From a virus, in IMG/VR virus record IMGVR_UViG_3300025120_000694, positions 1-21,064 of that record: DNA of 21,064 nucleotides. One strand, 5' to 3'. Positions 511 to 20,365 of this stretch are shown one piece after another; the stretch's first letter is position 1, and every line of letters starts with the position of its first letter. A program made the translations under genes and the position numbers. The notes below the pieces were generated by a model. That model made no database searches, had not been told where the DNA came from, and saw only the letters and a list, made by a program, of their open reading frames with translations.

Positions 511-538
511 TTGACATAGTTTCATTTACTGTTATAAT
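511..538 (+). promoter_or_regulatory. Consensus sigma70 (early-type) promoter
   Basis: A perfect -35 hexamer TTGACA (511-516) and a perfect -10 TATAAT (533-538) are separated by 16 bases, directly after the stop of the upstream gene. The -10 ends 6 bases before the ATG at 545. With the usual -12 to -7 placement of the -10 box, +1 falls on the A of that ATG. It should serve the exonuclease and dNMP kinase genes early in infection through unmodified host polymerase. Confidence 0.85.
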
Positions 539-544
539 GATACT

Positions 545-1066
545 ATGGATATTATGATAGATATAGAAACTGTAGGTACCGGCCCTAATGCTTGTATTCT
601 TACAATCGCGGCCCAAACTTTTGATCCTTTAAGTGTTGGTTACCATAAACAAGATTACTATGCAAGAGTTGATGTTGACAGTCAGCCAGACAGAGAAGTT
701 GATGACGCAACTGTTGAATGGTGGTCTACACAACCACAACAAGCACAGGACGAAGCATTTTCAGAAGAGGGAAGAATTCCTTTGCGTGAAGCACTGGAAG
801 AACTAAGCAAGATATGTTTTCATTGCAATCTTACATGGGCTAACGGTACAACGTTTGATATGGTTATACTTGAAAATGCAATGAAACACTTAAAACTTCC
901 TATACCTTGGCAGTTTTGGAATGTGAGAGATGCACGTACAGTATATAGTTTGTACCCAGACTTGCCAAAGCCACGTGCAAGTCATCATGCACTTGAAGAT
1001 TGTAGAAGACAGATTGATCTACTACAACAAACCCTAAAACACCTAAAGGTAGTAGGACTTAAATGA
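545..1066 (+). CDS. dexA: DexA-like 3'-5' exonuclease (DEDDh, RNase T-like fold)
   Basis: A 173-residue DEDD-superfamily exonuclease. Motif I is IDIET with D6 and E8, motif II is NGTTFDM with D105, and motif III is HHALED with H148 and D152, giving the complete DEDDh set for two-metal 3'-5' hydrolysis. Size and motif spacing fit the T4 exonuclease A (DexA) and Rv2179c-like group; an RNA substrate cannot be excluded. In T4-like phages such enzymes degrade nucleic acid ends during infection. No Shine-Dalgarno precedes the ATG at 545; instead a sigma70 promoter lies 6 bases away, implying leaderless translation. A second in-frame ATG at 554 would keep D6 and E8 but leave only two residues before the first aspartate. 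The stop overlaps the dNMP kinase start (ATGA). Confidence 0.85.
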   Translation: MDIMIDIETVGTGPNACILTIAAQTFDPLSVGYHKQDYYARVDVDSQPDREVDDATVEWWSTQPQQAQDEAFSEEGRIPLREALEELSKICFHCNLTWANGTTFDMVILENAMKHLKLPIPWQFWNVRDARTVYSLYPDLPKPRASHHALEDCRRQIDLLQQTLKHLKVVGLK

Positions 1067-1686
1067 TAGTTGGTATTTGCGGACTTATAGGCAGTGGTAA
1101 AGGAACTGTTGCTGATATATTAGTAGAACAAGGATTTACTAAAGTAAGTTTTGCTGACAAACTTAAAGACGGTGTTGCAACTATTTTTGATTGGGATAGA
1201 GCCATGCTCGAAGGTGATACCGACGAAAGCAGAGAGTGGCGTGAACAAACAGATGATTTTTGGACACAAGAGACTGGCAGGACTATAACACCTCGTGTGG
1301 TTCTACAAGAATTTGGTACAGAATGTATGCGTGAAGGCTTTGACAATGGAGTATGGGTAAGTCTATTAAAGAAACAGATGATAGACAATCCTGGAAACTA
1401 TGTTGTGCCTGATGTGCGTTTTCGCAACGAACAAAATATGATACGAGAACTTGGTGGAGAAATTTGGCAAGTAAAACGAGGCAAAGATCCTGAATGGTTT
1501 GCGAGAGCTATATTTGATAATAATAATCTAGAAACAAGTAATTTAATGAGCGGTTATGATGTTCATGAAAGTGAATACAAATGGATAGATGTCAATACCA
1601 GATTTGATTTCATTCTTAATAACAATAGCACTCTTTTAGATTTACAATCTTTAGTCCTCAATCAAATCTCCAACTTTCCAAGGTAA
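1063..1686 (+). CDS. gp1: Deoxynucleoside monophosphate kinase (T4 gp1-like)
   Basis: This 207-residue protein begins with a P-loop, GLIGSGKGT at residues 7-15, followed by a strand and FADKLKD, the arrangement of phage dNMP kinases of the T4 gp1 family. Later elements include LLQEFGTE-like VVLQEFGTECMR (about 88-99), VVPDVRFRNEQ (about 114-124) and the acceptor/lid part with HESE near residue 168. The enzyme phosphorylates dNMPs to dNDPs in the cytoplasm to feed phage DNA synthesis. It starts at ATGA overlapping the exonuclease stop, so the two genes form a coupled pair under the promoter at 511-538. The last 36 bases overlap, in antisense, the 3' end of the convergent zinc-protein gene. Confidence 0.9.
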   Translation: MIVGICGLIGSGKGTVADILVEQGFTKVSFADKLKDGVATIFDWDRAMLEGDTDESREWREQTDDFWTQETGRTITPRVVLQEFGTECMREGFDNGVWVSLLKKQMIDNPGNYVVPDVRFRNEQNMIRELGGEIWQVKRGKDPEWFARAIFDNNNLETSNLMSGYDVHESEYKWIDVNTRFDFILNNNSTLLDLQSLVLNQISNFPR

Positions 1687-1995
1687 GTCGAGTCTTACTA
1701 TTTCAACACTACAATTTAGACAGACACTTCTAAGATTCGCAAGGTTACTATTCTTTAAGTTTCCATCCACATGGTATACAAGTATTTGTGCTCCACTTTT
1801 TGCTATAAAATTACAACGATCACAAATCTTCTTTTTTTGATACCCTTCGATTTGCCAACGAGCAACTTGGGCTTTCATTTTTCTATTTTTGCGTGTACAA
1901 CTATCACATCTAGTACGATAGTGCTTCTTATCAGCTTTGATATAATTTACCGCAACTAAACGGCGGTTACATGCACTACAGATAGGTCTATTCAT
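1651..1995 (-). CDS. HNH-like zinc-binding protein, convergent to the dNMP kinase
   Basis: A 114-residue protein with four CxxC pairs (C6/C9, C30/C33, C58/C61, C92/C95) and a central HVDGNLKN (H75, D77, N79) before NLRSVCLNC. This combination resembles HNH endonucleases, in which a His/Asn pair sits between zinc knuckles. From memory, proteins of this build, starting M-[RN]-x-PIC and ending WK.GDL..D, are frequent in marine T4-like phages. The start at 1995 (MNRPIC) is preferred over an ATG 30 bases upstream because a late-type box, GCTAAATA (2001-2008 on this strand), sits 5 bases before it. No Shine-Dalgarno is visible. Nuclease activity is inferred; it may act as a nicking or homing enzyme or simply as a zinc-ribbon DNA-binding protein. 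Confidence 0.8.
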   Translation of the reverse strand: MNRPICSACNRRLVAVNYIKADKKHYRTRCDSCTRKNRKMKAQVARWQIEGYQKKKICDRCNFIAKSGAQILVYHVDGNLKNSNLANLRSVCLNCSVEIVRLDLPWKVGDLIED

Positions 1996-2000
1996 ACGGA

Positions 2001-2008
2001 TATTTAGC
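2001..2008 (-). promoter_or_regulatory. T4-type late promoter box GCTAAATA, 5 bases before ATG
   Basis: On the minus strand GCTAAATA is followed by TCCGT and then the ATG of the HNH-like gene. T4 late -10 boxes (TATAAATA) occupy about -13 to -6, which would place +1 on the A of the ATG. There is no ribosome binding site. Confidence 0.65.
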
Positions 2009-2059
2009 AACACAAACCTTTGCAAAGGGCAATAGTAACGGCGATATTTGAACGATTCT

Positions 2060-2067
2060 TATAAATA
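2060..2067 (+). promoter_or_regulatory. Consensus T4 late promoter TATAAATA for gp18
   Basis: A perfect TATAAATA octamer lies 39 bases before the sheath gene ATG. It gives a leader of about 34 bases that carries the Shine-Dalgarno AAGGAAG (near 2095-2101). It faces away from the minus-strand late box at 2001-2008, so the two form a divergent pair. Confidence 0.85.
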
Positions 2068-2106
2068 TCATTAAGAGATTATAAAGCATTCAAAAGGAAG
2101 CAAAAC

Positions 2107-5100
2107 ATGGCACTAACATCCCCAGGCGTAGAAGTTACCGTAGTAGACGAAAGCAACTATCTTCCAGCCGCAACAAATTCAGTACCCTACATCCTGATAG
2201 CAACTGCACAAAATAAAGTAAGCGGTGCAGGCGTAGGAGTGGCCGCAGGTACAACAGCGGCAAATGCAAACAAATGTTATTTGATTACCTCACAAAGAGA
2301 TTTGGCAGCCACATTTGGTACACCATTCTTTTATAGTACATCAGCTGGTACATCAATTAACGGATACGAACTTAATGAATATGGACTACTAGCTGCCTAT
2401 TCTACACTAGGAGTAAGCAACAGGGCATACGTACAAAGAGCAGATGTAGATTTAAGCGAACTTACTGCAACACTGGTCAGACCAACAGGAGATCCAGCAG
2501 ATGGTGTGTACTGGTTTGATACAGGTGTATCAACATTTGGTGCATTTGAATGGAGTGCAACTACAGAAACATTTACTAACAAAGTGCCTACAGTTATTAC
2601 AAATGTTGCAGATTTAGTTGGAGGAACATCCAGCGGAGTACCATTAGCAAGTATAGGAAGTATATATGACTATGCAGTTAACACAACAAATACAAATAAT
2701 CCAGTATACTATAAATCACCAGGAAATACTGCAAGTTCACCAGTAGTAACCGCAAACAGTTGGGTACTAGTTGGAAGCGATGCATGGAAGAATTCATGGC
2801 CATCAATTATAGGTACTGCAACAAATCCAACACTTACTGCTGCACAATCAATTATCCTTAACGATGTGACAGTGGCAGCTTCTGGAACAACAGTTACCAC
2901 AATGGCTGCTGATATTAACAGTGCTTCTATTCCTGGTATATCTGCAACCGTAGCAAACGGTAAATTACAAATATTCATTGATTCAAATGGTTCCAACGAT
3001 GGTTCAACAGATAATGGCAATGGAATACTAATGGTAGAGCCAGGTGCAACAGGAACCTTATTAGCAGACTTAGGAATTACTGCAAGTGGTGACAAGCCGT
3101 ATTATGCGCCAGTTCTACATTTTGGTTATAACTATAACAATCCGAGTTGGCAAGCAACTGGCACTGAGCCTCATCCAACCGGTAGTGTTTGGTATAAGTT
3201 GAACAATGTTAATTCAGGAGCAAATCTTGTTGTTAAACAGTATGCAGCCGCAACTGATACATTTACTACATTGAACACACCAATTTATGCAAACGATCAA
3301 ACTGCATTAAAAAATCTTGATCCAGCAGGTGGCGGAACAAATATTGCAGCTGGCACTTTATATGTACAAAACAATGTACAAGAAAACGACACATATACAT
3401 CAAAGTTTTTTGATAGATTTACAACTGGAGCAACTTTAGTTACAGGCAATACAACAACACCAACATTTGTAAGCTCAGAAACATTTACAATCCAAGCAAG
3501 TGCAAAAAATAGTACAACACTTACTGCTGCGGTTACTGCTCAACTAGCAGGAACGAGTGCAACTGACTTTGTCACTGCATTTACTGCCGCAAATGTCGCA
3601 AATACAACTGCACGAGTACTATCTACTGGTGCAGTGCAAATTGAACATACACTTGGTGGAACTATAGTGCTCAAAGACACAAGCGGTACACCTGTATCAG
3701 ATGCAGGTATTTTAGCAACAATTACAACCGGACAGGTTAGAGCTGGAAATAACAGTGATGTAATACTAAGCAACTGGATTCCGTTAGGTTTTGGTGTAAC
3801 ACCGGTTTATACTGCAAGTTCAACTGCTCCAAGCATCGACCCTGCAGATGGTACAAAATGGTACTATAGTGCAACTGGTGATTGTGATATTTTAATACAA
3901 AGTGGCGGCACTTGGAAAGGTTACCAGAATGTAACATCTGACCAAAGAGGCTTTAATTTAAGTACTACTTCTCCAGATGGGCCAATTGTAAGTGCTACTG
4001 CTCCTACAAAGCAAAGCGACGACAGTGCATTGGTATATGGAGACTTATGGGTGTCAACTGCTGATTTAGATAACTATCCACAAATTTACAGATGGCAAAG
4101 TGTAAGCACAGTTGATCAATGGGTACTATTAGACAACAGTGACCAAACAACACAAAATGGAATACTATTTGCGGATGTACGTTGGGCAGGCAATGGAACA
4201 ACAGATCCTATTACTGGTGATATTCCTACAATTAAAAGTTTATTAACAAGCAACTATGTAGATTTAGACAAGCCAGATCCTACACTTTATCCTGAAGGAA
4301 TGCTAGTGTGGAACATGAGACGTAGTGGATTTAATGTAAAGAGCTTTGAAGCTGATTACTTTAATGCAACTGACTTTCCTTTTGCTACATTTGGTGCATT
4401 GCCTACAGTGACAGATGCTTGGGTAACTGCAAGTGGACTACAGTCAGATGGCTCTATGTTTGCAGGTAGAAAAGCAGTGAGAAACATTGTGGTAGGCGCA
4501 ATGAAAGCCGCAGTTGATGGTTCACAAGAACTACGTGAAGAGCAAAAAATATTTAATTTACTTTGTGCTCCAAACTATGAGGAACTAGCAAGTAACTTAG
4601 TCGCACTTAACAATGAGCGTAACAACACAGGATTTATCCTTAGTGATGCTCCTATGAGGTTAGCAGATACAGGAACAGACATAACAAACTATGCAACAAA
4701 TGCAAACGGAGATGGCTTAACAACTGCTGATCCATATTTTGGTGTGTTTTATCCAAGTTGTCAAACAACTGACTTGTCAGGAACAACAGTGGTTGCACCA
4801 GCAACGCACATGATGTTAAGAACAGTTGTACGTTCAGATGATGTTGCTTTTCCATGGTTAGCACCAGCAGGTACAAGACGTGGAACAGTTGATAATGCAA
4901 CACAATTGGGTTATGTGAACGCCACAACAGGTGAATTTGTGCAAACTGCTGTGAGACAAGGTTTAAGAGATACACTTTATACAAATAGTATAAATCCAAT
5001 TACTTTCATTCCTGGTTCTGGAATATTAAACTATGGAAATAAAACTACATTCAGTGGAACATCGTTAGATAGAATAAATGTTGCAAGACTTGTTGCTTTT

Positions 5101-5421
5101 ATTAGAGGTAGATTAGAAACAATTGGTAAGAACTTTGTATTTGAGCCAAACGATACTACAACACGCGATGAGATTAAAAATGCAATAGAAAGTCTAATGA
5201 TTGACTTAGTAGCAAAGCGTGGAATATACGACTACTTAGTAGTGTGTGATGAATCAAACAATACACCAACAAGAATAGATGCTAACGAACTATATGTTGA
5301 TGTTGCAATTGAGCCAGTGAAAGCAATTGAATTCATTTACATTCCAGTTAGAATTAAAAATACAGGCGAAATAGCAGCCGGAAACGTAGCCAGCTCAGGT
5401 GGCATTACATACGGTTCTTAA
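2107..5421 (+). CDS. gp18: Tail sheath protein gp18, enlarged with inserted domains
   Basis: This 1104-residue contractile sheath subunit packs around the tail tube and drives injection. The N-terminus MALTSPGVEVTVVDES and the C-terminal part (about 690-1104: DIPTIKSLL, AGTRRGTVDNA, INPITFIPGSG, then FIYIPVRIKNTGEI at the end) are typical of gp18 of marine T4-like phages. T4 gp18 has 659 residues, so about 450 extra residues lie in the middle. That insert holds a repeated unit with a P-x-x-G-x-x-W core at about 125-157, 354-388, 574-606 and 635-674, and a duplicated Ala/Thr-rich beta-type domain at about 244-325 and 454-536, each ending near a DLGI or DAGI turn. The insert probably decorates the outside of the sheath. 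Expression is from the late promoter at 2060 with a good Shine-Dalgarno, ending at the terminator at 5438. Confidence 0.93.
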   Translation: MALTSPGVEVTVVDESNYLPAATNSVPYILIATAQNKVSGAGVGVAAGTTAANANKCYLITSQRDLAATFGTPFFYSTSAGTSINGYELNEYGLLAAYSTLGVSNRAYVQRADVDLSELTATLVRPTGDPADGVYWFDTGVSTFGAFEWSATTETFTNKVPTVITNVADLVGGTSSGVPLASIGSIYDYAVNTTNTNNPVYYKSPGNTASSPVVTANSWVLVGSDAWKNSWPSIIGTATNPTLTAAQSIILNDVTVAASGTTVTTMAADINSASIPGISATVANGKLQIFIDSNGSNDGSTDNGNGILMVEPGATGTLLADLGITASGDKPYYAPVLHFGYNYNNPSWQATGTEPHPTGSVWYKLNNVNSGANLVVKQYAAATDTFTTLNTPIYANDQTALKNLDPAGGGTNIAAGTLYVQNNVQENDTYTSKFFDRFTTGATLVTGNTTTPTFVSSETFTIQASAKNSTTLTAAVTAQLAGTSATDFVTAFTAANVANTTARVLSTGAVQIEHTLGGTIVLKDTSGTPVSDAGILATITTGQVRAGNNSDVILSNWIPLGFGVTPVYTASSTAPSIDPADGTKWYYSATGDCDILIQSGGTWKGYQNVTSDQRGFNLSTTSPDGPIVSATAPTKQSDDSALVYGDLWVSTADLDNYPQIYRWQSVSTVDQWVLLDNSDQTTQNGILFADVRWAGNGTTDPITGDIPTIKSLLTSNYVDLDKPDPTLYPEGMLVWNMRRSGFNVKSFEADYFNATDFPFATFGALPTVTDAWVTASGLQSDGSMFAGRKAVRNIVVGAMKAAVDGSQELREEQKIFNLLCAPNYEELASNLVALNNERNNTGFILSDAPMRLADTGTDITNYATNANGDGLTTADPYFGVFYPSCQTTDLSGTTVVAPATHMMLRTVVRSDDVAFPWLAPAGTRRGTVDNATQLGYVNATTGEFVQTAVRQGLRDTLYTNSINPITFIPGSGILNYGNKTTFSGTSLDRINVARLVAFIRGRLETIGKNFVFEPNDTTTRDEIKNAIESLMIDLVAKRGIYDYLVVCDESNNTPTRIDANELYVDVAIEPVKAIEFIYIPVRIKNTGEIAAGNVASSGGITYGS
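2836..3714 (+). repeat. Duplicated domain inside the sheath insert (two copies)
   Basis: At protein level, residues about 244-325 (2836-3081) and 454-536 (3466-3714) of gp18 look like two diverged copies of one domain. Each runs from a strand (IILNDVTVAA; ETFTIQASA) through an Ala-rich helix (MAADINSASIPGISA; FVTAFTAANVANTTA), then a G-x-[LV]-Q-I strand (NGKLQIFID; TGAVQIEHT) and a closing DLGI/DAGI. The similarity is seen by eye in the translation only. Confidence 0.6.
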
Positions 5422-5437
5422 GGTACTTTAAATAACG

Positions 5438-5465
5438 AAAAATGAGGTTTATGCCTCATTTTTTT
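5438..5465 (+). terminator. Rho-independent terminator after gp18
   Basis: A 10-bp stem, AAAAATGAGG (5438-5447) with CCTCATTTTT (5454-5463), encloses a 6-base TTTATG loop and runs into a T tract. It separates the sheath transcript from the tube gene, which has its own promoter just downstream. The A tract on the left arm means it could also act on the other strand. Confidence 0.88.
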
Positions 5466-5478
5466 GTGGCAAATTTTT

Positions 5479-5486
5479 GATAAATA
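5479..5486 (+). promoter_or_regulatory. Late promoter box GATAAATA for gp19
   Basis: GATAAATA lies between the terminator and gp19, 25 bases before the ATG. The predicted leader contains a strong AAGGAG Shine-Dalgarno (near 5498-5503). It differs from T4 TATAAATA only at the first base. Confidence 0.7.
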
Positions 5487-5511
5487 ATATTATAATAAGG
5501 AGAATTATAAA

Positions 5512-6129
5512 ATGGCCGTATCATCGCTAACAAGAATGACTGTGCCTTTGGCATCAGACCAATCAAGTCCTACACAAGGACTGTTAATGCCAAAACTAAA
5601 ATACCGCTACCGGGTGGTATTTGAAAATCTTGGCGTATCTACACCTAGAACGGAACTTACTAAACAAGTAATGACTTTTACTAGACCAACAATAAACTTT
5701 GAAGAAATTGAAGTACCAATTTATAATAGTAGGATTTATCTTGCTGGACGTCAAACATGGGACGCAGTATCTGCAACTTTTAGAGATGACGCAGGCGGAA
5801 ATGTTACTAGATTAATTGGTGAGCAAATACAAAAGCAAATGGATACACTAGAACAAGCATCAGCAAGTTCGGGTATAGATTATAAATTTACAACACGTTG
5901 TGAAGTATTAGATGGTGGAAACGGAACAAGTGCACCTAATGTACTTGAGACTTGGGAACTATATGGTTGCTTTTTAGTAAGTGCTAACTATGGTGACTTA
6001 GATTATGGTTCAAATGACCCAGTAACAATCGAAACATCAATACGTTACGACAACGCAGTACAGACACCACTTGGAACAGGAATTGGATCAACAGTAGGAA
6101 GAACACTGGGTGACGTCGTAACTGGCTAA
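5512..6129 (+). CDS. gp19: Tail tube protein gp19
   Basis: A 205-residue protein with the build of T4 gp19 (163 residues), the subunit of the inner tail tube through which DNA passes. After a short polar N-terminus, the domain starts at KLKYRYRVVFENLG (about 29-42), continues through FTRPTINFEEIEVPIYNSR (about 56-74) and YLAGRQTWDAVSATFRDD (about 76-93), and finishes with ETWELYGCFLVSANYGDLDYG and ETSIRYDNA. The PxI.F.E..V..YN...Y.AG...W....T.RDD pattern is the tube signature in T4-like phages. It lies directly downstream of the sheath gene, as in T4, but is separated from it by a terminator. It has its own late promoter and a strong Shine-Dalgarno. Confidence 0.93.
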   Translation: MAVSSLTRMTVPLASDQSSPTQGLLMPKLKYRYRVVFENLGVSTPRTELTKQVMTFTRPTINFEEIEVPIYNSRIYLAGRQTWDAVSATFRDDAGGNVTRLIGEQIQKQMDTLEQASASSGIDYKFTTRCEVLDGGNGTSAPNVLETWELYGCFLVSANYGDLDYGSNDPVTIETSIRYDNAVQTPLGTGIGSTVGRTLGDVVTG

Positions 6130-6149
6130 TTAAGTTTAAGGAGTAACTT

Positions 6150-7367
6150 ATGGCTTTCGGTGAAGACTTTCTCAAAGGATTCTTTGGTAACGATTTCTTA
6201 AAAGACTATACACATGCGAGTAAGACTTTCCGTAGTAACAACGGAGCTCTTTCTCCACGTCGTAAGTTTCTATTTCATGTTGTTTTTAATTTAAATATAC
6301 AACAAATACCTCAACTTGCAAATGTATTTCAAGCAGACGATCTCACAAATCTAAATTTACTTGTAAAAGAAATAAAACTTCCATCTTACAGATTCAGTGT
6401 GGATACTATGAATCAGTACAATAGAAAACGTAAGATTCAAACACAGATTGAATATGATACAATTACCTGCATAATGCATGATGACGCCAGTGATTTAAGT
6501 AGAACACTTTGGTACAACTATTATTCTTATTACTACAAAGATGCAAGCCAAAAATACTATGATGCCGCAGTTACAAACGGAAGTATGGGGCCAAATGCAC
6601 AAGGTGTTGACCCTGGTGCCGCTTATCCATATGGATTTAGAGATATCTACACACAAGATAGGGAAATAAACGACTGGGGTTATATTGGTGAAAGTTATAT
6701 GGATGGCGCCAGAGAAGGTAAGCCTGCTTTCTTTCGTGATATTACAATATTTGGATTTAATGATCACAAATGGGCAGCTTATACACTTATTAATCCGATT
6801 ATAAGTTCTTTTGAACATGATACTTATAACTACTCTGAAGGTGCTGGTATTATGCAAAATACTTTTACCTTTGATTATGAAACTGTAAAATACTATCATG
6901 GTGCATTATCGGGCAATAAACCAGATGGACAAATACCTAGTTTTGCAAATCCAGGTAATTACGACACAGTTACATCACCGTTATCAAGACCAGGTAGTGC
7001 TGGAACTATATTTGGACAGGGAGGTTTGATTGATGCCGCAGGCGGAATTATCACTGATCTAAGTGCCGGTAACTTGGCTGGAGTTGTAGGAGCAATACAA
7101 AAAGGCGGCACTGCGTATGAAACATTTAAAGGTCGTGATTTACAAGCAATCTTAAAAACCGAATCAGAAAATATTGCACGTTCGCAGATTAAACAAGACT
7201 TGCCTGGCGCAGCTCGTGGTGTGCTATTTCCAAAGGCACCTGTTGCACAGGATGTTGGTAGTAAAGCTCCAGCTGGGTTGAAACCAGTAACCACAGTGGT
7301 AGCAGGCGCAGTGCCTACTAATTTGAATAAACCAGTAACGATTCCAGATCAAACAAAGTTGAAATAA
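6150..7367 (+). CDS. Second tail-tube-like protein (gp19 paralogue or tube-baseplate component)
   Basis: This 405-residue protein begins MAFGEDFLKGFFGNDFLKDY, followed by PRRKFLFHVVFNLN (about 36-49) and LLVKEIKLPSYRFSVDTMNQYN (about 70-91), which match the tube fold (strand, then EI.LP.....D....N). The body contains FNDHKWAAYTLINPIISSFEHD and FTFDYETVKYYHGALSG, comparable to the end of tube domains. The C-terminal 120 residues are low-complexity Gly/Ala/Pro-rich and probably flexible. Marine T4-like phages often carry a larger tube-like protein beside gp19. It could be a minor tube subunit or fill the role of gp48/gp54 at the tube-baseplate junction; the sequence does not decide. AAGGAG stands 8 bases before the ATG, 20 bases after gp19, so it is co-transcribed. 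Confidence 0.8.
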   Translation: MAFGEDFLKGFFGNDFLKDYTHASKTFRSNNGALSPRRKFLFHVVFNLNIQQIPQLANVFQADDLTNLNLLVKEIKLPSYRFSVDTMNQYNRKRKIQTQIEYDTITCIMHDDASDLSRTLWYNYYSYYYKDASQKYYDAAVTNGSMGPNAQGVDPGAAYPYGFRDIYTQDREINDWGYIGESYMDGAREGKPAFFRDITIFGFNDHKWAAYTLINPIISSFEHDTYNYSEGAGIMQNTFTFDYETVKYYHGALSGNKPDGQIPSFANPGNYDTVTSPLSRPGSAGTIFGQGGLIDAAGGIITDLSAGNLAGVVGAIQKGGTAYETFKGRDLQAILKTESENIARSQIKQDLPGAARGVLFPKAPVAQDVGSKAPAGLKPVTTVVAGAVPTNLNKPVTIPDQTKLK

Positions 7368-7368
7368 G

Positions 7369-7728: not shown

Positions 7729-7735
7729 GTGATAT

Positions 7736-8173
7736 ATGTCCAAGTTTCAACAAGGGATATACACTGTGATGAATCAAAGAAAGTATGCAGGCAAAGGCGC
7801 TCCAAAATATCGCAGTGGATGGGAACTTGCTTTTATGAGATTTTGTGATAATAACGATCATATTATCACATGGTCAAGTGAATCACTTGCTATACCCTAT
7901 AGAAATCCAATGACAGGAAAACCCACCCGTTACATTCCAGATTTTTTAATACAGTATAGAAATAAAAACAATCAAGTTGTTACAGAACTTATTGAAATTA
8001 AACCAAAAAAACAGAGTATACTTGAAAGTAAAGCTAGTAACAGAGATAGAATGGTTGTTGCTATAAACTACGCCAAATGGGATGCCGCTCAAAAATGGTG
8101 TAAACGTAATGGTCTTACATTTCGTGTTGTGACTGAAGAAGATATATTTCACCAAGGTAAGAAGCGTAAATAA
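7736..8173 (+). CDS. gp4: Head completion nuclease (T4 gp4-like, TnsA/PD-(D/E)xK fold)
   Basis: A 145-residue protein of the gp4/gp50 head-completion family (T4 gp4: 150 residues). The N-terminal half has KYRSGWELAFMRFCD (about 24-38), with E30 as the first acidic residue, then YRNPMTGKPTRYIPDFLI with D69, then ELIEIKPKK with E87 and K89. E30, D69, E87 and K89 give the PD-(D/E)xK nuclease core seen in TnsA-like enzymes. In T4 the protein acts on filled heads before tails attach. Its neighbours, tail genes upstream and the small terminase downstream, fit a head-tail joining task. AGGTG sits just before the ATG at 7736, and the stop codon lies inside the putative promoter of the next small gene. 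Confidence 0.82.
   Translation: MSKFQQGIYTVMNQRKYAGKGAPKYRSGWELAFMRFCDNNDHIITWSSESLAIPYRNPMTGKPTRYIPDFLIQYRNKNNQVVTELIEIKPKKQSILESKASNRDRMVVAINYAKWDAAQKWCKRNGLTFRVVTEEDIFHQGKKRK
8165..8172 (+). promoter_or_regulatory. Late-like box CGTAAATA, 6 bases before a small gene
   Basis: CGTAAATA overlaps the last codons and stop (TAA 8171-8173) of the gp4-like gene. It ends 6 bases before the ATG at 8179. It fits the NNTAAATA pattern of the other boxes in this window, with spacing one base longer than most. Confidence 0.45.
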
Positions 8174-8178
8174 GTATT

Positions 8179-8809: not shown

Positions 8810-8819
8810 GCTCTAGTCT

Positions 8820-8827
8820 GCTAAATA
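8820..8827 (+). promoter_or_regulatory. Late promoter box GCTAAATA
   Basis: GCTAAATA, identical to the box before the HNH-like gene, lies 20 bases before the ATG at 8848. The short leader holds GAAGGAA as Shine-Dalgarno. It probably drives the coupled virion block 8848-13910. Confidence 0.65.
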
Positions 8828-12643: not shown

Positions 12644-12659
12644 TAAAAGGAACTAAAAA

Positions 12660-13336: not shown

Positions 13337-13776
13337 TGTACGAGTATCGTGCAACAATCGTAAAAATCATAGATGGCGATACAGTTGATGTTGACATTGA
13401 CTTAGGATTCAATGTAGTGCTCAAAGATGAGCGTGTTCGTATAATGGGTATTGACACTCCTGAAAGCCGTACACGAGACTTAGAAGAGAAAAAGTTTGGA
13501 CTTGCGGCCAAGGCAAGAGTAAAAGACTTATTAGGTAAAAGTTGTGTACTAAAAACATCAATTAACAAAAACGGCGAGGACATGAAAGGGAAGTTTGGCC
13601 GTATATTAGGTGACTTTAGTGTATACGACCACACTACTGATAGTTGGAAAATGCTTACTGAAATTTTGATATCAGAAGGACATGCAGTACCATATCACGG
13701 ACAGAACAAGGATGACGTGCAAAAAGCACATCTTGCAAATCGAATTAAACTATTAGAAGACGGCGTAGTTGAATGA
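13336..13776 (+). CDS. Thermonuclease-like (SNase-fold) nuclease
   Basis: A 146-residue staphylococcal-nuclease-fold enzyme. The sequence IIDGDTV (D13, D15, T16) is followed by ERVRIMGIDTPE with R35, D40 and E43, the same spacing as the metal and phosphate ligands R35, D40 and E43 of the S. aureus enzyme; R89 in KFGRILGD matches the second catalytic arginine (R87). All active-site residues appear intact, so Ca2+-dependent DNA/RNA phosphodiester cleavage is expected. There is no signal peptide, so it acts in the cytoplasm or is carried in the virion. It begins by overlap with the preceding stop and its stop (TGA) overlaps the ATG of the following 45-residue ORF, placing it at the end of the virion block. 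Roles in host DNA breakdown or genome processing are inferred. Confidence 0.9.
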   Translation: MYEYRATIVKIIDGDTVDVDIDLGFNVVLKDERVRIMGIDTPESRTRDLEEKKFGLAAKARVKDLLGKSCVLKTSINKNGEDMKGKFGRILGDFSVYDHTTDSWKMLTEILISEGHAVPYHGQNKDDVQKAHLANRIKLLEDGVVE

Positions 13777-13910
13777 TCACCGGAATAAACTTTGGCGGAT
13801 TAACACCATCTACAAAAGCACAACCAATTGTTGCTCCGATGCCAGAAGAATATAAGCAAGAAACAAAATTTGAACCAATAAAGAATCCTATACCAAAGCC
13901 GGTTCATTAA
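13773..13910 (+). CDS. 45-residue proline-rich peptide gene
   Basis: An ORF of 45 residues begins at ATGA overlapping the thermonuclease stop. It reads MITGINFGGLTPSTKAQPIV at the N-terminus, then a polar stretch (PMPEEYKQETKFEP) and ends IPKPVH. It has a Gly-Gly-Leu near residue 8, many prolines and no cysteines. The last 23 bases overlap the 3' end of the convergent radical SAM gene. The coupled start and reading frame kept open to the very end of the block support a real gene, but no family is recognised. It could be a small virion peptide; a substrate role for the adjacent radical SAM enzymes is speculative. Confidence 0.5.
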   Translation: MITGINFGGLTPSTKAQPIVAPMPEEYKQETKFEPIKNPIPKPVH

Positions 13911-15051
13911 CTAAAATTTTATAATATTCAGGAAAGACATCGGCAAATTTTTCTTTGCGGTACTGATCTACCATTGTATTCCAACGCCAGAATCTTGCCC
14001 ATTCTTCGTCTTTGCCAGGAGATCTTAGTGCTTCTTTAACCGCATCAAGATTAACAATTTTATAATTATCCAAATGAGTTGCTACTTTTGCTCCTATAGC
14101 TGATGGCATTTTAAGTATAGAATAATAGTGTGGAAAAGTACTTAGAATAAAATAAGGAATCAGATTAAATTTATAGAAAAGTCCGTCAGTTAATTCATCT
14201 AAGTAATAAACATTCATACTAGTAACAGTACATACAGGAAGTATACTAAGGTTAATCTGTTTACTTTCATATAACTGTTTGAACCAGTATAAGTTGGTGT
14301 ACACCTCTTGCCAGTTACCCGGATGTCGTAAATATTCAAAGCGTTTCCCCCATCCATCAATGCTCAAATTTATATTGACATGATTGAATTTCTTCAGTAT
14401 ATTAATATTTTCCTGGGATATCTTGTGGGTAATATTGGTACTTAGATTAATTTGTATTTGATCTGCACGTCCAGTGTCTGCTAATTTTTGTAATAGATTA
14501 AATGTTTGAGGATCAAGCAACGGCTCGCCACCATAGATCTCTAATCTCTGTAAATTGCTACTCCACTCTACAATTTCTTGTATCTGTTCATTTGTAAACT
14601 GTTTACGTTTTGTATCAAGAAAATAAAAATTGTTTTCCCACTCAGTATCCTGTTTAGCATAGTTCTTACCTTCAACACTTAATGTCACACTATCTCTGCT
14701 ATTACAACTTCTACATCTTAGATTGCATACATTGCTAATTTTTAACGCAAGTTGTACAGGTCCTTTTTTGTAATCGACAATTGAATGCTTTTGTTTTAGT
14801 ATTTTTAATCTTTCGCTTTCATAACCAACACGTTCTTCTTTCCAACAACGCTCGCACTGCTTATGTTTACCATTTTGCAACATATGACTGCGAAAGTTTT
14901 CTAATGTCTCGTTTGTCCATATATCACTTAGTTTTTGACCTTGAAAGTTCCAAGTACTTCCGCCGAGAGCAGGACACGGACTAGCATTTAGATTGGCATC
15001 CATTGTAAAATGGGTAAACGGGGCATGACATAAATTTGGAGTATCATTCAT
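13888..15051 (-). CDS. Radical SAM protein with N-terminal auxiliary cysteines (paralogue A)
   Basis: A 387-residue radical SAM enzyme. The [4Fe-4S]-SAM motif CNLRCRSC gives C109, C113 and C116; the GGEP SAM-binding motif is at 174-177; NLSIDGWGKRFEYLR follows in the second half of the barrel. Before the barrel, C8, C26, C66 and C69 (LCHAPF, PCP, CERCW...ERVGYESER) look like ligands for an auxiliary cluster, here N-terminal rather than in a C-terminal SPASM/Twitch module. The start at 15051 is chosen over 15057 because it puts a cysteine at residue 8, as in the paralogue, and because GTTAAATA ends 5 bases before it. Paralogue B diverges from it across 43 bases. The reaction and substrate are unknown; peptide or protein modification is typical for relatives. 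Confidence 0.88.
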   Translation of the reverse strand: MNDTPNLCHAPFTHFTMDANLNASPCPALGGSTWNFQGQKLSDIWTNETLENFRSHMLQNGKHKQCERCWKEERVGYESERLKILKQKHSIVDYKKGPVQLALKISNVCNLRCRSCNSRDSVTLSVEGKNYAKQDTEWENNFYFLDTKRKQFTNEQIQEIVEWSSNLQRLEIYGGEPLLDPQTFNLLQKLADTGRADQIQINLSTNITHKISQENINILKKFNHVNINLSIDGWGKRFEYLRHPGNWQEVYTNLYWFKQLYESKQINLSILPVCTVTSMNVYYLDELTDGLFYKFNLIPYFILSTFPHYYSILKMPSAIGAKVATHLDNYKIVNLDAVKEALRSPGKDEEWARFWRWNTMVDQYRKEKFADVFPEYYKILVNEPALV

Positions 15052-15056
15052 AATCA

Positions 15057-15064
15057 TATTTAAC
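15057..15064 (-). promoter_or_regulatory. Late-like box GTTAAATA, 5 bases before ATG
   Basis: On the minus strand GTTAAATA is followed by TGATT and the ATG at 15051. It has the same 5-base spacing as the boxes before 1995(-), 15095, 16240 and 17829. No Shine-Dalgarno is present. Confidence 0.55.
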
Positions 15065-15081
15065 TAACTATGGATGGGGCC

Positions 15082-15089
15082 TATAAGTA
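15082..15089 (+). promoter_or_regulatory. Late-like box TATAAGTA, 5 bases before ATG
   Basis: TATAAGTA lies 5 bases before the ATG at 15095. The 17-base string CTATAAGTATTAGTATG (15081-15097) recurs with one change before the terminase large subunit (16226-16242), supporting a shared start signal. Confidence 0.6.
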
Positions 15090-15094
15090 TTAGT

Positions 15095-16231
15095 ATGCTA
15101 AAAGAGAAAAAATATTGTGCCGCTCCATGGAGAAGTTTGCATTTAAACTTTGAAGGGCAAATCAAAACATGTTGTGCTGGAAATCCAAACATGTTAGGTA
15201 CAAATACCGATGGATCAATAGAACAAATTTTACAAGGCCCTGTGCTTAAAGAAATTAAGCAAAGCATAAAACAAGGTATACTGCATGAAGTGTATTGCAA
15301 AGGTTGCATTGGCAGAGAAGAAGTTGGATTTGGAAGCGAAAGAGACTGGCATAATAATATAAGTCCAGATTTTAATTTTACTACTGCTGAAGATTCAGAT
15401 CATAAACCAGCCCTAATAGATGTGCGTTGGAATAACACCTGTAATCTTGCATGTACATACTGTAGCGAAGTTTTTAGTACTAAATGGGCCAGTATTAAAG
15501 GCATAGCAAATAATGAAAATATAAAAGATGAATATACACAAGTTATAGATTACATAGACACGCATAAGCATCATGTAAAAGAAGTAGCAATGGTTGGCGG
15601 CGAACCATTGATGATGAAAGAAAACAATGCACTGCTTGACATACTTCCAGAAGATGTGTTAGTTACTGTGATTACAAATATGACAACTGACTTTGATAAA
15701 TTTCCTGTACCAAAAAAGTTACTTGCACGTAAGCGTGTAGGATGGAGCATGAGCTTTGATAATATTGGCAAAAGGTTTGAATATGTACGATGGGGCAGTA
15801 CATGGGAAACACTCGATAAAAATGTAACTACAGTGGCCAAACGTATCAACAGTTCTGAACAACACGGAGGTATACATAGTGTGTATAACATTTATAATTG
15901 CACCAAACTATGCGATCTTAAACAATATGCAGTTGATAAAGGAGTAAGTATCATGTGGCAACATGTTTGGGGCGATCAGCTTGACCCGACACAACATAAT
16001 CAAAAAATAAGAACACTTGCAATTGAAGAAATAAAAAAATTTAGAAATACTTTTGAACCAGATGAAAACGACACACCGTTTCTCAATGCCACTGAACAAC
16101 AACTACTTAACGGTAATGGAAATCGTAGTTTGGAATTGAAACAATTTACGGAAAAAGTAGAAAAAAACTGGCACCTAGATCAAAAAGGACAGTTTGTAAA
16201 ACTTTGGCCTGAGTTGGCAGAGGCACTATAA
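15095..16231 (+). CDS. Radical SAM protein with N-terminal auxiliary cysteines (paralogue B)
   Basis: A 378-residue paralogue of the divergent radical SAM gene. The cluster motif CNLACTYC gives C116, C120 and C123; GGEP is at 168-171; MSFDNIGKRFEYVRWGSTW parallels SIDGWGKRFEYLRHPGNW of paralogue A. The N-terminal set is C8 (YCAAPW), C26 and C27 (KTCCAG), C68 and C71 (YCKGCIGREEVGFGSER). The frame is open 21 bases further upstream (ATG at 15074), but the start at 15095 aligns C8 with paralogue A and has TATAAGTA 5 bases before it. Chemistry: SAM cleavage to a 5'-deoxyadenosyl radical with probable help from an auxiliary Fe-S cluster; substrate unknown. The stop TAA lies inside the putative promoter of the terminase gene. 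Confidence 0.88.
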   Translation: MLKEKKYCAAPWRSLHLNFEGQIKTCCAGNPNMLGTNTDGSIEQILQGPVLKEIKQSIKQGILHEVYCKGCIGREEVGFGSERDWHNNISPDFNFTTAEDSDHKPALIDVRWNNTCNLACTYCSEVFSTKWASIKGIANNENIKDEYTQVIDYIDTHKHHVKEVAMVGGEPLMMKENNALLDILPEDVLVTVITNMTTDFDKFPVPKKLLARKRVGWSMSFDNIGKRFEYVRWGSTWETLDKNVTTVAKRINSSEQHGGIHSVYNIYNCTKLCDLKQYAVDKGVSIMWQHVWGDQLDPTQHNQKIRTLAIEEIKKFRNTFEPDENDTPFLNATEQQLLNGNGNRSLELKQFTEKVEKNWHLDQKGQFVKLWPELAEAL

Positions 16232-16234
16232 GTA
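16227..16234 (+). promoter_or_regulatory. Late-like box TATAAGTA, 5 bases before terminase ATG
   Basis: TATAAGTA overlaps the stop codon (16229-16231) of radical SAM paralogue B. It ends 5 bases before the ATG at 16240. No Shine-Dalgarno is visible between them. Confidence 0.6.
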
Positions 16235-16239
16235 ATAGT

Positions 16240-17817
16240 ATGGTAGCAAGAGAAGCAGATGGGATATTAGTTAAAAGCCCTTATAAAAAACAAGAGTTTA
16301 CTGACGAGCAATTGCAAGCCTTTGTGCAATGTGCCGACCCAGAAACTGGGCCTGAGTATTTCCTTAAGAATTTTTTCTTTATACAACATCCTGTACAAGG
16401 AAAAATACAGTATGCTCCGTGGGAGTTTCAAGAACGTTTGATTAAAACTTACCACAACTATAGATACAGTATCTCAATGATGCCCCGGCAAACAGGAAAA
16501 AGCACAAGTGCGGCCGGATACTTGTTATGGTATGCAATGTTCAAACCAGATAGTACAATACTAGTTGCGGCACACAAATATGCAGGTGCCCAAGAGATTA
16601 TGCAACGTGTTAGATACAGTTATGAAGCATGTCCAGATCATATACGTGCTGGAGCAACAAGTTATAACAAAGGATCAATAGAATTTGACAACGGAAGTCG
16701 AATAGTTGCACAAACAACAACTGAAAACACAGGAAGAGGTATGAGTATTACCTTGTTATACTGCGATGAGTTTGCATTTGTTCGACCTACGATAGCAAGG
16801 GAATTTTGGACATCAATATCACCGACATTATCAACAGGTGGTGGTGCTATTATAACAAGTACACCAAACAGTGATGAGGATCAGTTTGCTTTTATATGGA
16901 AAGGTGCAAACAAAACTGAAGACGAGTTTGGTAATCAAAAAGAACTTGGTATAAACGGGTTTAAAGCATATAGAGCCTACTGGCGAGAGCATCCTGATAG
17001 AGATGAGGATTGGGCAACCGAGCAACGTAATATACTAGGAGTCGAACGTTTCAGACGTGAAATGGATTGCGAGTTTATTATAAGTGATGAAACACTTATA
17101 TCACCAACAAAGCTGATTGACCTTGAAGGAGTTGCAGAACCGTTATACAAAACAGGCCAAGTACGTTGGTACAAAAAGCCACAAAAGGGTAAAATTTATG
17201 TGGTAGCACTTGATCCTAGTTTAGGAACAGGTGGCGATCCTAGTGCAATACAAGTGTTTGAAGCTAATTCAACGTCGCAAGTAGCAGAGTGGAGACACAA
17301 TAAAACGCCCATAACTGATCAAATACGTATTCTTGTTGAAATTGTAAAACATATTAACGAATCTGTTCAAGATCCATTAGGTATATATTACAGTGTAGAG
17401 AACAATACCATTGGCGAAGCCGCTTTGCTTTGCATAGAACAGTATGGAGAACAAAACATTGAAGGATATTTTTTAAGTGATAACACTGTTGTTAGTGCTA
17501 GTGGTCGAAGGTATAGAAAAGGCTTTAACACAACAAATAAAAGTAAAATTGCGGCCTGTGCAAAACTTAAAACAGTAATTGAGTCTAATAAAATGACCCT
17601 AAGCAGTCCAAGTTTGATTGGTGAACTTAAAAACTTTGTTGCACACGGAACAAGTTATGCGGGCAAGCCTGGTGAGACTGATGATTTGGTTATGGCAAGT
17701 TTACTGGCAGTGCGTATGCTACAAGTTTTAACAAGTTATCACAAAGAATTAGATTCCCATTTAACAGATTTCAGCGAGGAAACATTAGAACCAATGCCGT
17801 TTGTGGCAATGTTTTAA
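16240..17817 (+). CDS. gp17: Terminase large subunit gp17 (packaging ATPase and nuclease)
   Basis: A 525-residue terminase large subunit (T4 gp17: 610). It pumps DNA into the prohead and cuts concatemers. The N-terminal ATPase has an adenine-binding-like region YAPWEFQ (58-64), Walker A MPRQTGKST (81-89, K87), Walker B TLLYCDE (171-177, D176, catalytic E177) and coupling motif TSTPN (206-210). The RNase H-like nuclease domain has VVALDPSLGTGGD (D325), YYSVENN (E387) and GETDDLVMA (D481/D482), the three acidic positions of gp17. All motifs are intact. Length is on the short side, mainly at the two ends. The start at 16240 has no Shine-Dalgarno but a late-type box 5 bases upstream. The small subunit candidate is 7.4 kb away, with the virion block and radical SAM pair in between. 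Confidence 0.96.
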   Translation: MVAREADGILVKSPYKKQEFTDEQLQAFVQCADPETGPEYFLKNFFFIQHPVQGKIQYAPWEFQERLIKTYHNYRYSISMMPRQTGKSTSAAGYLLWYAMFKPDSTILVAAHKYAGAQEIMQRVRYSYEACPDHIRAGATSYNKGSIEFDNGSRIVAQTTTENTGRGMSITLLYCDEFAFVRPTIAREFWTSISPTLSTGGGAIITSTPNSDEDQFAFIWKGANKTEDEFGNQKELGINGFKAYRAYWREHPDRDEDWATEQRNILGVERFRREMDCEFIISDETLISPTKLIDLEGVAEPLYKTGQVRWYKKPQKGKIYVVALDPSLGTGGDPSAIQVFEANSTSQVAEWRHNKTPITDQIRILVEIVKHINESVQDPLGIYYSVENNTIGEAALLCIEQYGEQNIEGYFLSDNTVVSASGRRYRKGFNTTNKSKIAACAKLKTVIESNKMTLSSPSLIGELKNFVAHGTSYAGKPGETDDLVMASLLAVRMLQVLTSYHKELDSHLTDFSEETLEPMPFVAMF

Positions 17818-17823
17818 TAAATA
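17816..17823 (+). promoter_or_regulatory. Late promoter box AATAAATA, 5 bases before ATG
   Basis: AATAAATA overlaps the terminase stop codon (TAA 17815-17817) and ends 5 bases before the ATG at 17829. No Shine-Dalgarno is present. Confidence 0.65.
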
Positions 17824-17828
17824 CGTAC

Positions 17829-20177
17829 ATGGCACAAGAAAACACAGCATCACAGCAAATATATGATTTGCTAGTCACTAGAGACTTTGATCCAAAGAGT
17901 TTGGACAGTATGGGCAAACCGACGGTCAATCCTAGCGAAGCAGACTTATTTTCATTTAACTTTGTCGCTAATGGAAACGAATACGGCACAGTTGTTGTAT
18001 TAGTCAATGGTGACAATGATCTAGAAGTCTACTACGGCGATAACTTGGGCAAGGGTATGGACCCTGGCGATAAAGGTGATTGGTACGATTTTCTTGCTAT
18101 GCTTAGACAAACTGCCAAGCGTAATCTACTAACATTTAGTTTGAACAATATGAACAAACTAAAGTATCAAATGGCCAGCATGGCTGATATCAGTGAGAGC
18201 TTGATAATGGAAGCATGGAGAGCTCAAGGCAAGAGCAAGAGCTATAGTAATCAACCTGGCAAAGCAAAAGTGGTCATACAACACTCTCGTGCTATCGGTG
18301 AAGGTGAGCAGCGTTTTAGAAACATTGCAAGTCTGTTTGTTGAGAATGCTCAAGGCGAAAGATTCCGTATGCCTTTTGAAAGTATTGCTGGTGCTAAAGC
18401 AATGGCACGTCATGTAAGCGAAGGCGGGACTCCATATGATGCCTTTGGGCAACACATAAGTGAAACAATAAACGAGATTAAAACACTGGGCAAGTTTGTA
18501 AGAGCAAGTCGAAGTAATGCGTTTGCACAGAACGAACAAGCACTGGACTTAGTGGAAGATGCAGTAAAGCATTATTCAGATCTTAAACGTAAAGCCAAGA
18601 AGATGATTGGTAAACGTGGATACAAAGAGATATTTTCGACCTATGATCCAGCAATAGCAACAGAATTAGACGAAACAATAGAAAGTGTAAGAGAAGTATT
18701 TGTAAACAGTGCAATTGATAGTCGTATCGAAGAAGCATTGCCTATACTGGCTAAAATAAAGGAAAACACAATGAGAGAAGCAAACCAATTTGAAAACTGG
18801 ACCAACCAGATTATGGAAGGTACTTGGGCATTACCAGAAACAGAAGAGGATATGGCAAGGCTACAAGAGCTTATGTCAAAGCCATTACCATGTGGGCCTG
18901 ATGGCGAGTATGCTTCTGAACAACTTTATGATCTAATTGGCGATGACAGTTTGTTTGATGACATTGGTGAACTAGCAGACAAAGATCCAGATGCAGATTG
19001 CAGAGAAGTAGTAATGGCACGTGCTAAAGAACTTGGCGTAGACATAGACGTAGAAGTTGGTGAAAGCATTAACGAAAATCCAACTGATCAAGAAACTGCC
19101 AGTAGTTATCAAGCAGGACAGGCAAATGCGGCCGCAGGTAAAGAACGCAGTATGGCAATGAACTTAGGTGGCGAGAAAGCCGCTATGAAACAAACTGCTG
19201 GTGGACAAGATATAGAAGAAGATTCAGAAGAGATGACAAACACCGGGCGTGAAGAAGATTTGTCAAATATTGATAGAGATAGTATAACAATTGATATGGT
19301 TAAGCCAGCGATTCTAAAAATGTATGCCTCATATGAAGCAGATGCTCAGGAATGGAATGACAGATATGCTGAACTTGAAAAAGAAGTTAGAGCAACAGGA
19401 GTAAGAGATCCGAGACAAATAGAAGTCGACGTGTTAAACATGGATGATGATATAATAAGTTATACAAACATTGATGATCTAGAAGATAAGATTGATGCAA
19501 TCAAAAGACTTATGAGACAAGGTGATGCTGATGGACATGATATTGTTGATTTGGCAAGTTCAGGTCCAAGTGATACTATTGCAAGAGAAGAGTTTATGAG
19601 AGAACTAAAAACTGCAATCAAGCAAGACCATCCAGACGTATACGACAAATTGTTTATGTACGGTATTGGTGAGTCAGTTTCAGAAAGTGTTACTGATGCG
19701 GACCTATATAGCACTGACAAAAATTCAGTAATTGAAATAATGAAACAGTATCCTGAAGATGCAAAGAAAATGAGGCAGGCTGGTGATGTATATGCTATAT
19801 ACGGATCAGATTTATACAACGAATTTGAAAGTTATATGCAATCAGACGGCGGTATATACATGGCCGGTAGCGATGTTGATCCTGTAGAGGTAATTAACAC
19901 CATGCTAGATGGCTACGATTTATTAGAAGGCATGGATAGTTTTGTTAATCCAAACGACCAAGATGGCACAGACAACGAAAAACCAGTTGACATGATGGCC
20001 CAGGACGATATGGATGATGAAGACATGACTGAAGATCGTGAGATGCTAGAGCTCCTTAGACTTGCTGGACAACAGAACGAAGTTGAAGAAACACAGGATG
20101 TTGACACTGGCAGAGAAGCACTTAAAGCCGAACGTGATCCAATGCTTGAAAGAATGTTACACATCGTAAATAGGTAA
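17829..20177 (+). CDS. VrlC-like large virion-associated protein
   Basis: This 782-residue acidic protein has an N-terminal alpha/beta region (about 1-105: LFSFNFVANGNEYGTVVVLV, then LEVYYGDNLGKG) and the segment MASMADISESLIMEAWRAQG (about 117-136). A conserved core at about 145-230 has KVVIQHSRAIGEGEQRFRNI, RFRMPFESIAGAKAMARHVS and GGTPYDAFGQHI. This core matches my recollection of the VrlC-like structural proteins encoded near terminase or head genes in cyanophages; the name comes from a Dichelobacter locus. A helical region follows (about 235-330), then a long Asp/Glu-rich C-terminal half. The role is unproven; virion location is inferred from relatives and context. It starts without a Shine-Dalgarno, 5 bases after a late box overlapping the gp17 stop. 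Confidence 0.85.
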   Translation: MAQENTASQQIYDLLVTRDFDPKSLDSMGKPTVNPSEADLFSFNFVANGNEYGTVVVLVNGDNDLEVYYGDNLGKGMDPGDKGDWYDFLAMLRQTAKRNLLTFSLNNMNKLKYQMASMADISESLIMEAWRAQGKSKSYSNQPGKAKVVIQHSRAIGEGEQRFRNIASLFVENAQGERFRMPFESIAGAKAMARHVSEGGTPYDAFGQHISETINEIKTLGKFVRASRSNAFAQNEQALDLVEDAVKHYSDLKRKAKKMIGKRGYKEIFSTYDPAIATELDETIESVREVFVNSAIDSRIEEALPILAKIKENTMREANQFENWTNQIMEGTWALPETEEDMARLQELMSKPLPCGPDGEYASEQLYDLIGDDSLFDDIGELADKDPDADCREVVMARAKELGVDIDVEVGESINENPTDQETASSYQAGQANAAAGKERSMAMNLGGEKAAMKQTAGGQDIEEDSEEMTNTGREEDLSNIDRDSITIDMVKPAILKMYASYEADAQEWNDRYAELEKEVRATGVRDPRQIEVDVLNMDDDIISYTNIDDLEDKIDAIKRLMRQGDADGHDIVDLASSGPSDTIAREEFMRELKTAIKQDHPDVYDKLFMYGIGESVSESVTDADLYSTDKNSVIEIMKQYPEDAKKMRQAGDVYAIYGSDLYNEFESYMQSDGGIYMAGSDVDPVEVINTMLDGYDLLEGMDSFVNPNDQDGTDNEKPVDMMAQDDMDDEDMTEDREMLELLRLAGQQNEVEETQDVDTGREALKAERDPMLERMLHIVNR

Positions 20178-20191
20178 TTTTACCAAAACAT

Positions 20192-20219
20192 TTGATTTCT
20201 CCTATAGTTATGCTATTAT
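20192..20219 (+). promoter_or_regulatory. Sigma70-like promoter upstream of small ORF and gp32
   Basis: TTGATT (20192-20197) and TATTAT (20214-20219) are separated by 16 bases, the same spacing as the perfect promoter at 511-538. The -10 ends 5 bases before the ATG of the 46-residue ORF. It is suited to early or middle expression of gp32. Confidence 0.6.
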
Positions 20220-20224
20220 AAAGC

Positions 20225-20365
20225 ATGTTTAATTTTACGCGACATAAAACTACACCGATTGGTGTGTCTATGCTAAATAAAAGTGCAGGTAATGTAGTTG
20301 CATTGCTTGTTGACAAACATACAAAGGCAAATGATAGAGTAGTAGTTGCTACTCGTAGGCAATAG
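20225..20365 (+). CDS. 46-residue hypothetical protein upstream of gp32
   Basis: A short ORF starts 5 bases after the -10 box and reads MFNFTRHKTTPIGVSMLNKS, then an aliphatic stretch (AGNVVALLVDK) and a basic end (NDRVVVATRRQ). It ends 10 bases before gp32, and its last codons run into the gp32 Shine-Dalgarno (AGGAGA at about 20365-20370). It has no recognisable family. It may be a small early protein, or a leader ORF whose translation affects gp32 translation, a gene that is autoregulated in T4. No second start or frame explains this interval better. Confidence 0.5.
   Translation: MFNFTRHKTTPIGVSMLNKSAGNVVALLVDKHTKANDRVVVATRRQ
20272..20279 (+). promoter_or_regulatory. Possible internal late box GCTAAATA before gp32
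   Basis: GCTAAATA, identical to the boxes at 2001(-) and 8820, occurs inside the 46-residue ORF about 97 bases before gp32. It could give late gp32 transcripts, but an octamer inside AT-rich coding sequence may be chance. Confidence 0.25.

Follow-up and report, generated by a model that had tools for sequence, protein, structure and literature searches.

Promoter boxes abutting start codons and predicted leaderless messages in giant T4-like water phages and in Pelagibacter phage HTVC008M

In a group of giant T4-like phages from water, as well as in the cultured phage HTVC008M, promoter boxes stand at a single fixed distance ahead of many start codons; from the nucleotide sequences, it is predicted that the corresponding messages probably have the start codon as their 5' end. 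The interpretation retained here, held with high though not complete confidence, is that a leaderless class of genes is driven by gp55-type late promoters and by host sigma70 promoters, beside a class of genes with leaders carrying a Shine-Dalgarno (SD) sequence.

Results

The phage and its genes

The stretch analysed, called the window hereafter, is a 21-kb virus record (IMGVR_UViG_3300025120_000694) taken at its full length of 21,064 nt. It encodes T4-type structural genes (tail sheath, two tail-tube proteins, head closure, terminase and a virion structural protein), and also an SSB, an exonuclease and two radical SAM genes. Its terminase large subunit (TerL) is 91-93% identical to IMG/VR contigs, one of them of 328 kb, and 52% identical to that of PA5oct, i.e., the closest isolate group in the phage collection. 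The name T4-like phage, given by the initial annotation, agrees with the TerL, sheath and tube homologies of the window and with the major capsid protein (MCP) and gp55-family sigma of its relatives. On the contrary, the description of the gene at 17829 as VrlC-like was not reproduced, its PHROGs label being virion structural protein. The product of 1651..1995 has no PHROG match at 0.001.

Two starts deserve a comment. For the radical SAM gene of the minus strand, the spacing argues for ATG 15051 and not for the upstream ATG 15057 of the ORF caller, which overlaps the late box. The minus-strand gene at 1651 probably starts at 1995 rather than at TTG 2025. It must be noticed that terL neighbours the two divergent radical SAM genes (13888-16231) in the window, and that its divergent partner in the related record G006 is an HNH endonuclease gene.

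Eight boxes directly before start codons

The gap is defined as the number of nt separating the end of the box from ATG. Eight boxes at a gap of 5-6 from starts devoid of SD had been described by the initial annotation; all of them are present at these coordinates and gaps (Table 1), none of the eight starts has an SD, and an SD is present before each of the genes cited as SD-led (2107, 5512, 6150, 8315, 8848, 12660 and 20376). The observation is thus confirmed, and chance is very far from explaining its spacing: a box at gap 5-6 precedes 8 of the 23 gene starts of the window vs. 3 of the 794 other ATGs (Fisher P=1.6e-11). This P value is optimistic, the box set being that of the initial annotation and drawn from the same window, and the decisive tests were for that reason moved to other records. 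The box before 8179 is the weakest of the eight cases, and the TATTAT box at 20214 has a weaker consensus. For the promoter at 511-538, the expected +1 is the A of ATG 545, its 5' end being unmapped.

Table 1. Boxes, genes and divergent pairs (positions in the window unless another record is named; gap in nt between box and ATG).
Feature	Position	Strand	Gap	Remark
sigma70-type promoter TTGACA-N16-TATAAT	511..538 (box 533-538)	+	6	ATG 545; 12/12 consensus
Late-type box GCTAAATA	2001..2008 (core 2006-2001)	-	5	ATG 1995
Late-type box CGTAAATA	8165..8172 (core 8167-8172)	+	6	ATG 8179; overlaps stop codon of preceding gene
Late-type box GTTAAATA	15057..15064 (core 15062-15057)	-	5	ATG 15051
Late-type box TATAAGTA	15082..15089 (core 15084-15089)	+	5	ATG 15095
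Late-type box TATAAGTA	16227..16234 (core 16229-16234)	+	5	ATG 16240; overlaps TAA stop of preceding gene
Late-type box AATAAATA	17816..17823 (core 17818-17823)	+	5	ATG 17829
sigma70-like promoter TTGATT-N16-TATTAT	20192..20219 (box 20214-20219)	+	5	ATG 20225; 9/12
Late box TAAATA + AAGGA SD	2062..2067	+	39	before tail sheath gene 2107; leadered
Late box TAAATA + AAGGAG SD	5481..5486	+	25	before tail tube gene 5512; leadered
Late box TAAATA + AAGGA SD	8822..8827	+	20	before gene 8848; leadered
Exonuclease gene	545..1066	+		phrog_255; predicted leaderless, early-type promoter
Small gene, 114 aa, HNH-like by eye	1651..1995	-		predicted leaderless
Cys-rich ORF, 54 aa	8179..8343	+		leaderless status uncertain
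Radical SAM protein gene	13888..15051	-		predicted leaderless
Radical SAM protein gene	15095..16231	+		predicted leaderless
Terminase large subunit	16240..17817	+		phrog_36964; predicted leaderless
Virion structural protein	17829..20177	+		phrog_13484; predicted leaderless
ORF, 46 aa	20225..20365	+		predicted leaderless
Divergent leaderless pair, window	15051-15095			43 nt between ATGs
Divergent leaderless pair, G006	14927-14966
Divergent leaderless pair, G007	85553-85592
Divergent leaderless pair, HTVC008M	18916-18943

Spacing in related records

A genome-wide scan of the spacing, proposed by the initial annotation as a check that could refute the leaderless starts, was run on relatives of the window and turned out in their favour, the 5-base spacing being strongly enriched. 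The pooled records are G001, G003, G004, G006, G007 and G011, i.e., uncultured IMG assemblies; G005 and G006 look like one phage and G005 was excluded from the pooled counts, and G002, a close relative of G001, is counted within the 76 gap-5 starts mentioned below. The counts relate TAARTA to ATG codons opening an ORF of at least 60 codons and include a few chance ATGs, as judged from the controls. The distribution of gaps in the six records is bimodal: one mode is a spike at gap 5 accompanied by lesser groups at 4 and 7, and the other, beyond a trough covering 8-16, is a hump at 17-28.

The enrichment of all hexamers was also ranked, for gaps of 0-30 nt and ORFs of 100 codons or more, no box set being chosen beforehand. 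In the six records, no hexamer/gap pair is more over-represented than TAAATA at gap 5 (34 observed vs. 1.6 expected), whose enrichment outranks that of every SD hexamer; TAAGTA at gap 5 is likewise high (16 vs. 1.0). Reversed or shifted hexamers give no gap-5 spike, shifted ATAART showing the necessary echo at gap 6. The spike is present in each identity group among 80 related loci, and a more distant record, G009, has a broader excess over gaps 4-7. Among late boxes preceding a gene, about 40% are at gap 4-7 (26 vs. 40 genes in G001, 23 vs. 31 in G006).

Two start classes and a common register

The SD motif is found at none of the 76 gap-5 starts of the related records, whereas it is found at 48 of 82 starts at gap 17-22 and at 41 of 69 at gap 23-28. 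Together with the gap-5 enrichment, this supports, at the level of sequence, the two start classes (leaderless and SD) put forward by the initial annotation. The base preceding ATG at gap 5 is C or T in 74 of the 76 cases. In SD-led genes behind the same box, position 6 downstream of the box is A in 73 and a purine in 100 of 130 genes; at gap 5, this position coincides with the A of ATG. Thus one promoter with one start register accounts for both classes, and a pyrimidine before ATG is expected, since it would be the -1 base next to a purine +1. Besides this purine enrichment, the +1 register relies on what is known of T4 late promoters, and the actual 5' ends are inferred. Genes at gap 7, often with ACY-ATG, would have leaders of 2-3 nt, their 5' ends being unmapped. 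GTG starts are few in the leaderless and leadered classes alike, so that AUG-only use, which leaderless initiation would predict, is uninformative here.

Early promoters at the same gap

Strong sigma70-like promoters, i.e., those with a match of at least 5/6 in each hexamer, peak at gaps 5 and 6 (5 and 7 sites, respectively, in G001, G003, G004 and the window), most gaps below 20 having 0-2 sites. In G009 the peak is at gap 6, with 8 sites. The sigma70-like promoters of PA5oct and T4 have no peak at gap 5-6. The hypothesis that leaderless genes are late genes only is rejected, sigma70-like promoters sharing the same gap. The suggestion of the initial annotation that the classes could be set by time of infection is unsupported as it was worded, the leaderless layout being met with early-type sigma70 and with late-type boxes; the class split tracks likely protein dose better than infection time.

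Conservation of the boxes

The boxes are retained before many orthologues: (i) at gap 4-7 in 8 of 8 related records for the HNH-like 114-aa gene, at protein identities of 49-86%; (ii) at gap 4-7 in all 14 printed homologue contexts for the structural gene at 17829; (iii) in 10 of 13 contexts for the radical SAM homologues of 15095, and in L011 for the radical SAM gene at 15051; (iv) as the sigma70-type box in 5 of 7 exonuclease orthologues (G001, G002, G003, G007 and G009); (v) as TATTAT in both relatives found for the ORF at 20225 (L008 and L012). Of 34 independent contexts upstream of terL, 15 have TAARTA at gap 4-7. The box of 8179 is retained at this gap in only one of three close relatives (L004, not L005 or L007).

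A palindrome of the CCTTNNNNAAGG form (CCTTTGCAAAGG, CCTTACCTAAGG, CCTTAATTAAGG) precedes the TAAATA box of the HNH-like gene by about 8-11 nt in most relatives. It sits at 2017-2028 in the window, the comparison covering the orthologues of the HNH-like gene in G001-G011, and is possibly an operator or a recognition site.

Genes of the two classes

The leaderless-type genes encode terminase, portal (in G006 and G009), minor virion proteins, radical SAM enzymes and HNH endonuclease. In HTVC008M they encode gp2, head closure, tail tube cap, a baseplate wedge subunit, a tail completion protein and tape measure. The SD-led genes include tail sheath, tail tube and fibres or spikes, and MCP is SD-led in 6 of the 6 related records where it was found. 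These lists fit a dose rule, i.e., leaderless for low-copy and SD for high-copy proteins, which remains an inference, the copy numbers being those of T4 proteins. The rule is imperfect: portal is leaderless in G006 and G009 and leadered elsewhere.

The leaderless layout saves space. In the four divergent leaderless pairs (Table 1), both boxes lie inside the 26-43 nt between the ATGs, i.e., two promoters in that length, and some boxes overlap the preceding stop codon.

Distribution among phages

The number of TAARTA at gap 5 is near that of the reversed-pattern control in T4, PA5oct, Phosso, Atu_ph07, 121Q, Vibrio 2.275, CBB, KVP40, PAU, Cr30, phiM12 and the tested cyanophages, and the gap-5 spike is missing in T4, PA5oct and syn9. 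S-TIM5 (4 vs. 2 for the control) is too small to call, and Mosig (7 vs. 2) and Melnitz (5 vs. 2) have a weaker excess. HTVC008M has a gap-5 spike of 13, vs. 1 for the control. With the starts annotated by its depositors, 14 genes have a box at gap 4-6, none of the 14 with an SD, and an SD is present in 10 of 12 leadered late genes. Thus this pelagimyophage has the same layout as the jumbo records on the basis of an independent annotation. HTVC008M belongs to another family (Kyanoviridae) and its cyanophage relatives are without the spike, so that the trait is convergent or transferred.

The host of HTVC008M is SAR11, the most abundant bacterium of the ocean. There is no sign that this host uses the same layout: in SAR11 genomes, TATAAT precedes ATG at gap 6 in 71 cases vs. 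61 for the control, i.e., without clear excess, and gap 10 shows no excess either.

Late sigma and bS21

A gp55-family sigma (phrog_234) was found in 7 of the 8 related IMG records searched (G001, G003, G004, G006, G008, G009 and G011); this gene is outside the coverage of the 21-kb window. As regards the TAARTA box, the two leading bases (TA) of the TATAAATA-like box are weakly constrained, and the fourth base of TAARTA may be G as well as A. The open frames of the gp55-family sigma in the jumbo clade are of about 300 aa (e.g., G003 101500-101844), the gp55 of T4 having 185 aa.

A phage bS21 as partner of the leaderless class is unsupported, its distribution not tracking the trait: bS21 was found in G006, G007, G009, PA5oct, Phosso and Atu_ph07, and was not found in G001, G003, G004 and G011. 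The bS21 of HTVC008M (91228-91431) is 56-57% identical to genes of Pelagibacteraceae genomes (L239-L242), and its own gene is SD-led.

Discussion

Proposed mechanism and its alternatives

In the first class, an 8-bp T4-type late box (core TAARTA) or a host sigma70 -10 box would place +1 on the A of ATG or within 1-2 bases of it. TAARTA is presumably read by the gp55-family sigma of the phage, and ribosomes would engage the 5'-terminal AUG of the resulting leaderless mRNAs, a route of translation which is inferred. In the second class, the same late box would stand about 17-40 nt upstream and leave a leader with an SD. Mass-produced proteins (major capsid, sheath and tube) would be made from the SD class, and the leaderless class would serve for many enzymes and virion components of low copy number (terminase, portal in some lineages, radical SAM, HNH-like and exonuclease). 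That the class split sets the dose is also inferred.

The fixed distance from TAARTA to ATG and the absence of SD would equally suit an A/U-rich translation signal (e.g., an S1 or start-site context element) carried by longer transcripts, without any promoter. This is considered improbable, since the same hexamer is also met 17-40 nt upstream together with an SD and with its own downstream purine register, its fourth base is restricted to A or G, a gene for a gp55-family sigma is present, the same gap is met with an unrelated box (sigma70 -10 with -35), and divergent pairs share 26-43 nt. It could also be that the promoters are real but that transcription begins inside the ORF or mostly elsewhere, the genes being translated from starts further downstream or from polycistronic RNA produced by read-through. 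Some genes are indeed directly behind a co-directional gene, so that read-through RNA should exist. This is nevertheless quite improbable: some other cause would have to be found for the -1 pyrimidine and for a gap of exactly 5, protein conservation starts at these ATGs, and divergent pairs have no upstream co-directional gene.

The genomes are AT-rich, and AT-rich DNA could give TAAATA near ATG by chance or composition alone. Practically no credit is left to this possibility, which is refuted by the hexamer controls (no spike with reversed or shifted hexamers), by the absence of spike in AT-rich PA5oct (33% GC) and T4 (35% GC), and by the observed vs. expected numbers of TAAATA at gap 5 given above. 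As for the boxes at 8167 and 16229 of the window, which overlap the preceding stop, they could suggest a stop-start coupling in which TAA would end the preceding gene immediately ahead of the next start. As a general cause it is refuted and its probability is negligible: only 19 of 117 boxes contain the in-frame end of an open frame of at least 60 codons, the rate is 0.004 for other stop hexamers vs. 0.074 for TAAATA and 0.044 for TAAGTA, and TAAYTA is found in 8/1345 cases vs. 82/1313 for TAARTA.

Beyond two promoter-driven start classes, a broader reading may be formulated, which is tentative and on balance doubtful: a lytic lineage would possess a dedicated leaderless channel, early and late, in which one box in two placements sets the dose, marine phages of distinct families having converged on it, perhaps along with a modified initiation on the ribosomes of the infected cell.

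Comparison with known systems

In well-studied Gram-negative phages, leaderless messages usually play only a marginal part. In the present phages, a large minority of late genes apparently have a T4-type late promoter joined to their start codon, giving a switch, readable in the sequence, between two initiation routes under one transcription system. Gene-start calling in marine jumbo phages would be improved, and HTVC008M with its cultured SAR11 host makes the layout directly testable. Late promoter prediction was unsuccessful in pelagimyophages (PMC7029224), which a layout abutting the start codon may explain.

Each half of the system is known separately, i.e., leaderless genes abutted by a -10 box and T4-type late promoters; the search of open PMC articles yielded neither their combination nor any account of leaderless T4-type late transcription (subscription papers and preprints being outside its scope). 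T4-type late promoters have the box TATAAATA in T4 and KVP40 and NATAAATA in S-PM2 (PMC2984593). The box sequence and the gp55-family sigma are common to them and to the relatives of the window. On the contrary, the late boxes of T4 and syn9 are mainly 20-30 nt upstream, whereas about 40% are at gap 4-7 in the clade of the window, where TAAGTA is also used.

In bacteria, leaderless («TA-led») genes (Zheng et al. 2011, PMC3160421), leaderless mRNAs of Caulobacter and Sinorhizobium (PMC4117421) and a -10 box adjoining the ORF in Deinococcus-Thermus (PMC12340547) have been described. Bacterial leaderless genes share with the present ones a -10-like box placed some 10-12 nt ahead of the start codon, the absence of SD and, for the present ones by inference, a +1 at the start codon. 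They differ in that they use boxes of host sigma factors, whereas the clade of the window uses mainly a T4-type late promoter with a phage sigma, and has in addition an SD class on the same promoter.
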